From assembly GCA_003220225.1 (NCBI GenBank), contig QHRU01000066.1, positions 1 through 54,745 on the forward strand: a DNA stretch of 54,745 nt. Reading direction: 5' to 3'. Under the pieces are notes generated by a model that saw only the letters and a program-made list of their open reading frames with translations, was not told where the DNA came from and did no database searches. Origin of the DNA: Candidatus Rokuibacteriota bacterium (lineage in GTDB: Bacteria > Methylomirabilota > Methylomirabilia > Rokubacteriales > CSP1-6). This document shows positions 2-2,733 of this stretch, one piece after another. Positions within the stretch are counted from its first letter, which is position 1. Every line of letters starts with the position of its first letter. A program made the position numbers and the translations under genes.

Positions 2-76
2 CTCGCGGTGCTGCTGGCCGAGGCGGCGAAGGCCGGCGCCCGACTGGACGAGGCGAGCGATGTCGTCGCTGCGTGA
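2..76 (+). CDS. DUF692 family protein HvfB/BufB, C-terminal end only
   Basis: This is the last 24 codons of a gene that enters from the left. The readable tail (LAVLLAEAAKAGARLDEASD) resembles the C-terminal helix of DUF692 proteins, the HvfB/BufB maturases of bufferin-type RiPP peptides. It overlaps the start of the following HvfC-like gene by 17 nt, which is the usual gene order and coupling for hvfB-hvfC. The identification rests on this short tail plus the neighbour, so it is moderately supported only. Confidence 0.55.
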   Translation, partial: LAVLLAEAAKAGARLDEASDVVAA

Positions 77-818
77 GCTCCAGGCGGGGTTCCGCGCGGC
101 GCTGCTCGCCGGCGACGAGCGCGGGGTGGCGCCCGACGTCGTCGACGACGGCGTGAACGCCTCGGCGCGGCTGGCCGTCTATCGCCACCACGTCCTCACG
201 AGCCTCAGCGCCGCGCTGGAGGCGACGTTCCCCGTCGTCTGCCGTCTCGTCGACCGGCGCTTCTTCGGCTGGCTCGCCGACAGCTACGTGCGCGCGCATC
301 CACCAGCGGGGCCGTGCCTGTTCGAGTATGGCGCCGACCTCCCCGAGTTCATCGCCGCGTTTCCAGCCTGCGCGCCGCTGCCGTGGCTCGCCGACGTGGC
401 GCGGCTCGAGTGGGCGATGAACGTCGCGCTTCACGCGCCCGACGCCGTGCCGCTGGAGCCGGAGGCGCTGCGAACGCTGCCGCCCGCGACGCTCGCGCGG
501 CTCACGCTGCGCCTCGACCCCTCGGTGACACTGCTGGCGTCGCGCTGGCCCGTGGACGCTATCTGGGACGCCAACCAGGCTGGCGTCGACCCGGCGCCCA
601 GGGTGGATCTCGACGCCGGCGGCGTGTGGCTCGAGATCCGGCGGCGGGACGGCGACGTCGTACGACGCGCGCTGCCGCGCGCGGTGTTCGCGTTCCGCGC
701 GGCGCTTGCCGAGGGCCGCGCGCTCGAAGAGGCCGTCGAGAGCGCACTGGACGCGGATCCCGCCTTCGACCTCGCCGGCGAGATCCGCGCGCTGCTCGAC
801 GAGCGGCTCGTCTGTTGA
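60..818 (+). CDS. HvfC/BufC family protein (DUF2063 domain)
   Basis: A 252-aa protein with the DUF2063 N-terminal module: LQAGFRAALL, the conserved NASARLAVYRHHV segment near residues 33-45, then LEATFPVVCRLV and FFGWLADSYVRAHPPAGPCL. Members accompany DUF692 iron enzymes (HvfB/MbnB-like) that modify cysteine-rich precursor peptides, and HvfC is thought to be the partner that presents the substrate. The ATG at 60 lies inside the end of the DUF692 gene, implying translational coupling. The precursor peptide gene (DUF2282-type) would lie upstream, outside the window. Length is normal for the family and no damage is visible. Confidence 0.85.
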   Translation: MSSLRELQAGFRAALLAGDERGVAPDVVDDGVNASARLAVYRHHVLTSLSAALEATFPVVCRLVDRRFFGWLADSYVRAHPPAGPCLFEYGADLPEFIAAFPACAPLPWLADVARLEWAMNVALHAPDAVPLEPEALRTLPPATLARLTLRLDPSVTLLASRWPVDAIWDANQAGVDPAPRVDLDAGGVWLEIRRRDGDVVRRALPRAVFAFRAALAEGRALEEAVESALDADPAFDLAGEIRALLDERLVC

Positions 819-908: not shown

Positions 909-1397
909 CTAGCCGCGCAGCTCCACGTTGCGGTTGCCGGCGCGCACCTTCGCGTCCCACGTGACCTCGATCGCGCCTTTCACGCTCTCGTGCGCCGGGC
1001 AGCCTTGCGGATGCGCCGCCAGCGCTCGCTCGGTCGCTTCGAGCGCGTCCGCCGGCACGGCGAGGTCGTAGTGGACGTGGATCGAGCGGATGCGGATGGT
1101 TTTGCCGTGGCCGACGATGCGGCCCTCGGCGGCGGCGGTGAAGGTGTCGCGGTCGAACGCGATCTTGCGCCCTGCCAGGGCGCCACGCAGAGTGCCGAAC
1201 ATTCAGCCGGCCACGCCGGCCACGATGTGGTCGAGCGTGGACGCGACGGGCGGGCCCTCGGGGGCGCCGTAGTACTGGCGCAGCGCGCCCTGCACGCCGT
1301 ACACGACGGGCTCGGGTACGTCGCCGAGGTACGCGTGGCGGGCGCCGTTCTTTTCGAGCAGGCGGGTCTTCGAGACGTATTCGAAATCGTCGGCCAT
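909..1397 (-). CDS. OsmC-like peroxide reductase, probable selenoprotein (in-frame TGA = Sec65)
   Basis: Reading through the TGA at 1205-1203 gives one 162-residue OsmC-family protein. The first half ends VASTLDHIVAGVAG and the second begins MFGTLRGALAGRKI in the same frame. OsmC/Ohr proteins carry their catalytic peroxidatic Cys at exactly this point (AxAGC), so TGA replaces Cys, as expected for selenocysteine. The second OsmC cysteine is present (C133 in HPQGCPAH). A 7-bp hairpin with loop GGC lies at 1183-1167, its loop G 27 nt after the TGA, inside the bacterial SECIS range. ATG 1397 follows GGAG; the gene starts 13 nt after the peroxiredoxin-like gene. It probably reduces organic hydroperoxides. 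No Sec-insertion genes are in the window. Confidence 0.85.
1167..1183 (-). promoter_or_regulatory. SECIS-like hairpin of the OsmC-like gene
   Basis: Stem GCGCCCT/AGGGCGC with loop GGC, located 20-36 nt after the in-frame TGA. Bacterial SECIS elements lie within the coding region just downstream of UGA, with a G at the start of a short apical loop; this hairpin satisfies both conditions. Confidence 0.65.
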
Positions 1398-1410: not shown

Positions 1411-2064
1411 TCACTCGCCGCGCAGCGCACGCAGCGCTGCCAGCGTGTCCTCGGGCTCGGGTCGGGTGGTGTAGTCGGGATCGCTCTCGGCGGAGTGGAT
1501 GACACCGCGGCGGTCGATCACGAAGCGGGCGGGCATCGGCAAGGTCCACGATGCGTCGCCGTTGTACGCGGCGAGGTCGAGCGGGAACGACCGGTACACC
1601 GCGCGCAGGTACTCGGGCAGCGTGAACGTCAGACCGAACTTCGTCGCGACCTCGTTGCCGCGATCGCTCAGGATCTCGAAACCGAGCGCGCGGCTTCGGA
1701 TCAGCTCACGGTTGTGCTCGGGCAGCTGCGGCGAGATCGCGACCAGGCTCGCGCCGAGCGCGGTGATCTCTGGCAGGACCTTCTGTAGAGCTACCAGCTC
1801 TACGTTGCAGTACGGTCACCAGCGGCCGCGGTAGAAGGTGACGACCAGCGGGCCGCGCGCGAGCAGGGTCTGGCTGTCCACGATCCGTTCGTTCCCGTCT
1901 GGCAGGGCGAAGCGGGGCGCCGGGTCGCCGGCCTTCAGCACCCGGCCCGGCGCGCCCGACGCGCGCAGCTCGTCCACCGCGCGGCGCATCGTGGCCACGG
2001 TCTCCGACGGGCGCTTGGCCTCCGCCCGCTCCCGCAGCGTCTTCAGCTCGTCTTTGAGCGCCAT
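1411..2064 (-). CDS. Peroxiredoxin-like AhpC/TSA protein, probable selenoprotein (Sec83, UPYC)
   Basis: A 217-residue thioredoxin-fold protein split by one in-frame TGA at 1818-1816. The sequence around it reads LVVTFYRGRW-TGA-PYCNVELVAL. The usual family motif is FYRGxWCPYC, so TGA replaces the peroxidatic Cys and C86 is the resolving partner. Codons after the TGA form a perfect 8-bp hairpin with loop GGT at 1803-1785; they use AT-ending codons (GTA, CTA) that are rare in neighbouring genes, as if the RNA structure were selected. ATG 2064 is preceded by AGGAGG. The protein should reduce peroxides using thiol reductants. It is probably co-transcribed with the OsmC-like gene 13 nt downstream. 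A nonsense mutation is unlikely because both halves are otherwise intact. Confidence 0.88.
1785..1803 (-). promoter_or_regulatory. SECIS-like hairpin of the peroxiredoxin-like gene
   Basis: Perfect stem GTAGAGCT/AGCTCTAC with loop GGT, 13-31 nt downstream of the in-frame TGA. The loop G sits 21 nt after the TGA. This is the clearest of the three SECIS candidates in the window. Confidence 0.75.
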
Positions 2065-2120
2065 GCGTGCCTCCTCTTCGCATTGGGACACCGCGGCGGC
2101 GGCCGAAGATTCACGAGTGG

Positions 2121-2126
2121 TAGACT
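2121..2126 (+). promoter_or_regulatory. Putative -10 box (TAGACT), leaderless start of the ECF sigma gene
   Basis: TAGACT ends 7 nt before the TTG proposed as start codon at 2134, so transcription would begin at or next to the start codon. This matches the pattern seen before many genes in the window. Confidence 0.45.
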
Positions 2127-2133
2127 GCGCTCG

Positions 2134-2733
2134 TTGAGTGTCGAGGATCGCGATTTACTCGCGCGCGCGACCGCCGGGGAGGCGGGCGCGCTCGAGACCC
2201 TCATGACCCGGTACTCCGCACGCGTCTACCGGCTCGCGTACGGTATCACGCGCAACGCCGCCGACGCCGAGGAGGTCGTGCAGGACGTCTTCCTCCAGAT
2301 CGTCAACAAGGGCGGCGGCTTCGAGGGCCGCGCGGCCCTCTCCAGCTGGATCTACCGGATCACGACCAATGTCAGCCTCAACAAGCGCCGCGGCAAGCAC
2401 CGCGAGCTCGAGACCTCGCTCGACGAGCTCCTGCCGACGTACCTGCCGGACGGCCACCGGGCGGGCGAGCGCGCGTTCCTCGTGGCGGACTGGTCGGGCA
2501 CGCCGGAGAGCGAGCTGCTCTCCGGCGAGTCGCGCCGGATCCTCGAGGCGGCGATCGATCGACTGCCCGAGCACTACCGGGCGGTGCTCGTCCTCAAGGA
2601 CGTCGACGAGCTGTCCAGCGACGAGGTCGCAGAGATCGTGGGCGACAGCGTGGCCGCAGTGAAGACGCGCTTGCATCGCGCGCGGATGGCGCTGCGCGAG
2701 CAGCTCACCCGTCGCCTCGGAGCCGGCGCATGA
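2134..2733 (+). CDS. ECF-type RNA polymerase sigma factor (sigma-70 family)
   Basis: About 199 aa. Region 2 is visible (LMTRYSARVYRLAYGITRN, DAEEVVQDVFLQI, then ALSSWIYRITTNVSLNKRR) and region 4 near the C-terminus (LPEHYRAVLVLKDVDELSSDEVAEI, KTRLHRARMALREQL). A 40-50 residue linker separates them. I place the start at TTG 2134 (MSVEDRDLLARA) because the usual N-terminus begins there and a -10-like box sits just upstream; an in-frame ATG at 2083 is the alternative. The stop overlaps the ATG of a zinc-finger anti-sigma gene (ATGA), the classic sigma/anti-sigma arrangement. The signal sensed is unknown; the neighbouring selenium-dependent peroxidases make redox stress a reasonable guess. Confidence 0.93.
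   Translation: MSVEDRDLLARATAGEAGALETLMTRYSARVYRLAYGITRNAADAEEVVQDVFLQIVNKGGGFEGRAALSSWIYRITTNVSLNKRRGKHRELETSLDELLPTYLPDGHRAGERAFLVADWSGTPESELLSGESRRILEAAIDRLPEHYRAVLVLKDVDELSSDEVAEIVGDSVAAVKTRLHRARMALREQLTRRLGAGA

Follow-up and report, generated by a model that had tools for sequence, protein, structure and literature searches.

The window, which here means the whole 54,745-nt stretch of DNA that was analysed, is contig C126 of a Candidatus Rokuibacteriota genome (G000; 6.03 Mb, 97% complete) from a soil relative of the Rokubacteria. Two adjoining genes on its minus strand each contain a single in-frame TGA, and a sigma/anti-sigma gene pair lies beside them on the plus strand:

909..1397, minus strand: OsmC/Ohr-fold selenoprotein gene (predicted), 162 aa, with Sec65 (TGA) and Cys133
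999..1001, minus strand: Cys133 codon, resolving Cys position of the OsmC gene, invariant in the family alignment
1167..1183, minus strand: candidate SECIS hairpin GCGCCC-UGGCA-GGGCGC, within the OsmC coding sequence
1203..1205, minus strand: predicted Sec codon TGA (codon 65), peroxidatic Cys position of the OsmC gene
1411..2064, minus strand: AhpC/TSA-fold peroxiredoxin (Prx)-like UxxC selenoprotein gene (predicted), 217 aa, Sec83/Cys86
1785..1803, minus strand: candidate SECIS hairpin of the Prx-like gene, GUAGAGCU-GGU-AGCUCUAC, with a shuffle z-score of -3.3 and covariation
1816..1818, minus strand: predicted Sec codon TGA of the Prx-like gene (UPYC motif), its single in-frame TGA
2065..2133, no strand: divergent intergenic region of 69 bp, common to the Prx-OsmC unit and the ECF sigma gene
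2134..2733, plus strand: ECF sigma factor gene with a putative TTG start codon
2730..2960, plus strand: zf-HC2 anti-sigma factor gene with an HxxxCxxC motif

Convergent to the OsmC gene, positions 60-818 (plus strand) encode a DUF2063/HvfC-like protein that scored below the cut-off of a RiPP maturation family.

When TGA was read as Sec, positions 909-1397 (minus strand) formed one frame of 162 aa that closed at a TAG stop, with the sole in-frame TGA at 1205-1203. The read-through protein scored 35.1 bits against the OsmC Pfam model PF02566 (cut-off 27.5), whereas the half downstream of the TGA alone scored 24.4 bits and fell below that cut-off. In sequence alignment Sec65 coincided with Cys60 of P. 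aeruginosa Ohr and Cys133 with its second Cys, and both residues, which occupy the peroxidatic and resolving positions, were invariant across the family of the window protein. A reading of the DNA made from sequence only had placed the TGA at the catalytic Cys of OsmC/Ohr enzymes and the second Cys intact, and both placements were borne out. An AF2 model of the protein (pLDDT 91.5) had the OsmC fold, with Z-scores of 12-15 against the best-matching OsmC/Ohr structures.

Among 388 sampled genomes, 72 held members of this OsmC family; a set of 18 genomes from another phylum yielded 16 with a member, two of which belonged to the first count as well. Every member that spanned the site read TGA there (~81 genomes, some of them from at least one other phylum), and no Cys form of the family was found in these ~81 genomes, a count that omits the remnants in G006, G028 and G084 and the distant Cys proteins in G092 and G365. 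Loci L098, L099, L213 and L214 encode Cys OsmC proteins too distant (26-41 bits) to count as Cys members of the family, and the gene in G084, in which homology stops at the Sec codon, was rejected as well. That gene (L289, G084:C204:1456-1647) has TGT at the Sec codon, and homology ends exactly there and gives way to unrelated sequence; its truncation is probably a rearrangement. Searches of a plasmid collection and of PHROGs gave no match.

Decay of an OsmC gene, with the TGA as a nonsense mutation, would fit the true remnants that exist among relatives: the gene has deletions in G028 and G007, is left as a fragment in G006 and is cut at the Sec codon in G084. Against this, all intact members, with identities as low as ~35% and from several lineages, carried the TGA at the same position, and the half downstream of it retained a conserved protein sequence that includes an invariant Cys. 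The hairpin described below is also strongly constrained. We regard a pseudogene as exceedingly improbable; comparative evidence identifies the window OsmC gene as a selenoprotein gene that is predicted to incorporate selenium. A Cys counterpart exists for almost every selenoprotein family. Since no Cys version was found in ~81 genomes, this family suits the question of why Sec is kept.

The genome encodes the full machinery for Sec insertion: the genes for selA, selB and tRNA-Sec are grouped on contig C5, and contig C159 carries selD, which itself has an in-frame TGA; all scored above their cut-offs. The use of TGA as an ordinary sense codon was set aside, given that TGA serves as the stop of genes in this region and that the genome has the Sec machinery. 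Downstream of the OsmC TGA, about where it had been claimed, is a hairpin whose stem spans nt 23-28/34-39 when positions are numbered from the U of UGA and whose minimum free energy is -13.4 kcal/mol; its place just 3' of the UGA and the G in its apical loop fit a SECIS element. Because its shuffle z-score was weak (-1.0, which is uninformative in a sequence so GC-rich), folding energy alone was not taken as evidence, and the support comes from conservation. Among 22 close-clade sequences, the stem codons showed almost no synonymous variation (mean codon entropy 0.07 for the invariant-residue codons from +6 to +12, compared with 0.95 for 68 other codons). In the 19 sequences that share the same hairpin layout, the stem was 100% paired and one pair had changed on both sides, from C-G to G-C. 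A second OsmC clade had another layout (stem 14-20/27-33) that was well paired, and no two-sided change was seen in its alignment. The hairpin of the Prx-like gene (nt 16-23/27-34) showed a C-G pair replaced by U-A, again on both sides, in an alignment that includes two sequences of another UxxC family with the stem shifted by two. An Rfam search returned no SECIS match at the gathering score.

An OsmC-like selenoprotein with the motif UxxT, assigned to COG1765, has been described from the Sargasso Sea (Zhang et al. 2005, PMC1088965). In common with that protein and those of NCBIfam NF041052 (OsmC_like_Se), the window protein has an OsmC domain in which Sec takes the place of the peroxidatic Cys; unlike them, it has U[ML]xG[TN] instead of UxxT and falls in a family of its own, for which the searches turned up no Cys form. 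It scored 20.9 bits against NF041052, compared with a cut-off of 95, and its relatives scored 16-27 bits or did not match; a gene on contig C148 of the same genome is a true member of NF041052 (158.8 bits, UxxT motif). By these sequence comparisons the window OsmC is a subfamily distinct from the described Sec-OsmC proteins, and no description of it was found in the literature searched, where absence is not proof. The family lies outside the curated Sec-OsmC model, and such genes are likely cut at the UGA by automatic annotation.

Compared to the Ohr/OsmC organic hydroperoxide reductases (PDB 1n2f, 1nye, 1ukk and 2onf), the window protein shares the fold and the positions of the peroxidatic (Cp) and resolving (Cr) residues but differs in having Sec for Cp, in its low identity (~11-19%) and in the catalytic Glu, which was not evident at its usual place. 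Similarity to characterised OsmC/Ohr proteins was weak (18-27 bits). In Xylella Ohr, the catalytic residues Arg19 and Glu51 act with Cp (PMC5962072). In the window protein, R/K20 may stand for the Ohr Arg, L55 is roughly at the Glu site, and D56 and H57 are invariant; the sequence alignment begins just past this site. Since the Ohr Glu has no clear counterpart, the substrate may differ.

The neighbouring protein scored 88.5 bits against PF00578 and contains UPYC, and is thus an AhpC/TSA-domain protein of the UxxC type. Alignment with 5epf and 2cx3 placed Sec83 on the Thr/Ser of the TxxC-type motif (the Thr of TPGC in 5epf) and matched Cys86 to the peroxidatic Cys; against the thioredoxin-family protein 3hdc, Sec83 matched the first Cys of CPYC. 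A classical Sec-peroxiredoxin (TxxU) was therefore rejected, as Sec lies three residues before the peroxide-attacking Cys and not at it. The sequence-only reading had both reductases using Sec at the attacking position, which held for OsmC but, because the neighbour is of the UxxC Prx-like type, failed for that protein in the peroxiredoxin sense. Prx-like thiol:disulfide oxidoreductase selenoproteins with UxxC and PF00578 are a known type (PMC13188914); the neighbour resembles them in having UPYC in an AhpC/TSA fold and differs in belonging to a 217-aa subfamily with Cys forms in other lineages. These Cys forms were present in seven genomes (G174, G376, G298, G318, G229, G220 and G254), all seven of which were without a window-type OsmC.

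On the same strand, a gap of 13 nt separates the end of the Prx-like frame from the OsmC ATG. Co-transcription of the two genes as one operon, as had been claimed, is probable. Known selenoprotein operons combine Prx with SelW-like or Prx-like with AhpD-like genes (PMC13188914); as in these, two Sec redox genes adjoin in the window, but here one partner is an OsmC. No mention of a pairing of UxxC Prx-like protein with OsmC was found in the literature searched. Four kinds of adjacency between OsmC and Sec UxxC genes were observed: Prx followed by OsmC (G000, G002, AA35 (L039) and G037), an OsmC remnant followed by an intact Prx (G007 and G028), Prx and OsmC in divergent orientation (G010, G041, G048, G051 and G056), and OsmC followed by a different UxxC protein (G041 and G054, with a remnant version in G056). 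A TetR-like ORF, recognised from its translation, lies between the divergent genes in G056 and G010 (L094 and L096). The pair thus recurs, with TGA at both sites in every Prx-OsmC pair, but it is not obligatory: most OsmC loci of the family have no Prx nearby, and in G001, which belongs to the same genus, this place lacks the Prx gene and OsmC lies directly beside the sigma gene. Because most OsmC genes lack an adjacent Prx and either gene has been lost in several genomes, the partner link is weak, and the earlier description of a dedicated selenium-dependent unit, in view of the solitary OsmC in G001 and the OsmC remnants in G007 and G028, was too strong.

The ECF sigma/zinc anti-sigma pair was present beside the unit as the same reading described, but this arrangement by OsmC was kept only in the three genomes of the genus (G000, G001 and G002), and ECF sigma as a conserved partner was not seen outside the genus. 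Both G001 and G002 have a leader related to the 69-bp region. The anti-sigma factor was RsrA-like below the cut-off (TIGR03988, 40 bits compared with 62.5). That the adjacent ECF sigma factor regulates the Prx-OsmC unit would be a guess.

Overall, we consider it fairly likely that the window gene encodes a Sec-containing OsmC/Ohr-fold peroxidase with the UxxC neighbour as a reductant or a parallel oxidoreductase. The best reading, by analogy, is a Sec-based organic-hydroperoxide reductase that may be recharged by UxxC partners. SelB would decode UGA codon 65 as Sec with the help of the hairpin that closely follows it, a step with strong comparative support. If the chemistry resembles that of Ohr, the Sec65 selenolate would then attack an organic hydroperoxide, the resulting selenenic acid would form a selenenylsulfide with Cys133, and a dithiol partner would reduce this Sec65-Cys133 bond. 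The UxxC Prx-like protein is probably one of two things, the reductant of OsmC or a parallel oxidoreductase encoded on the same transcript; that it adjoins OsmC repeatedly but not always suggests a replaceable helper. The UxxC selenoprotein pairing suggests a way, open to testing, in which a Sec peroxidase could be recharged.

Two other accounts accept the Sec-OsmC protein as real. The Prx could be unrelated to it, the two genes having a promoter in common by chance or only through co-regulation under oxidative stress, and we put this at somewhat below even chances. The many OsmC genes without a nearby Prx, the G001 locus and the Prx genes of G007 and G028 beside a dead OsmC speak for such independence. 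It is harder to reconcile with the ~10 of 27 Prx loci that adjoin a Sec-OsmC gene or remnant, a fraction far above a chance expectation of ~0.001 per Prx locus (a rough estimate based on genome size), or with the fall of the Prx-OsmC arrangements into separate clades of an OsmC tree that was built by a quick method and has many weak forks; in it the divergent set formed one clade and one further kind of arrangement formed another. Alternatively, the OsmC-like protein could be some other Sec redox enzyme, for instance one of thiol-disulfide, sulfur or peroxynitrite chemistry. Its weak similarity to characterised OsmC/Ohr proteins and the lack of an evident catalytic Glu would allow this, and for many proteins of the OsmC superfamily we know of no substrate; the retained fold, both catalytic Cys positions and a Prx-type neighbour that points to peroxide chemistry make it unlikely compared with the peroxidase that we favour.

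The same genome contains five OsmC-domain genes (contigs C28, C40, C108, C126 and C148) from at least three different subfamilies, four of them with an in-frame TGA. One has the two catalytic residues exchanged in kind:

G000:C108:244098-244523, minus strand: Ohr-like gene (loci L137 and L259) with Cys at the attacking position (SSCGVTL) and Sec/TGA at the resolving position (RUPLYRTV)

Matches to this Ohr-like family were found in 40 genomes, all but one with TGA inside, and in 30 of 30 loci read (relatives L260-L288) Cys was at Cp and TGA at Cr. A hairpin of the GGTCGC/GCGACC type followed the TGA in all but one of the 30 loci; in the exception, L287, homology ends just past the TGA. This family may be more unusual than that of the window OsmC, and as a sister family with a resolving Sec it would allow the roles of selenium at two catalytic positions to be compared within one fold. 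Ohr is served by lipoyl proteins. It is conceivable, though we think it distinctly improbable, that Rokubacteria have a selenium-based OsmC/Ohr network, in which several Sec-OsmC subfamilies per genome, with Sec at the attacking or the resolving residue, would be recharged through selenenylsulfide exchange by dedicated UxxC Prx-like selenoproteins and not by lipoyl proteins.

In the OsmC tree, a Rokubacteria subfamily with the motif LTGNM nested within sequences of another phylum (L090-L096, genus g9; L204 and L230-L245), and the OsmC proteins of the divergent Prx/OsmC loci were placed inside the other-phylum sequences with an SH-aLRT of 98. This nesting suggests that the selenoprotein gene of the divergent set was horizontally transferred. 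A Prx-OsmC pair 93% identical to that of the window was also present on a 3.3-kb contig (L039, QHVJ01000515.1) of a MAG titled Acidobacteria, for which misbinning is likelier than recent transfer.
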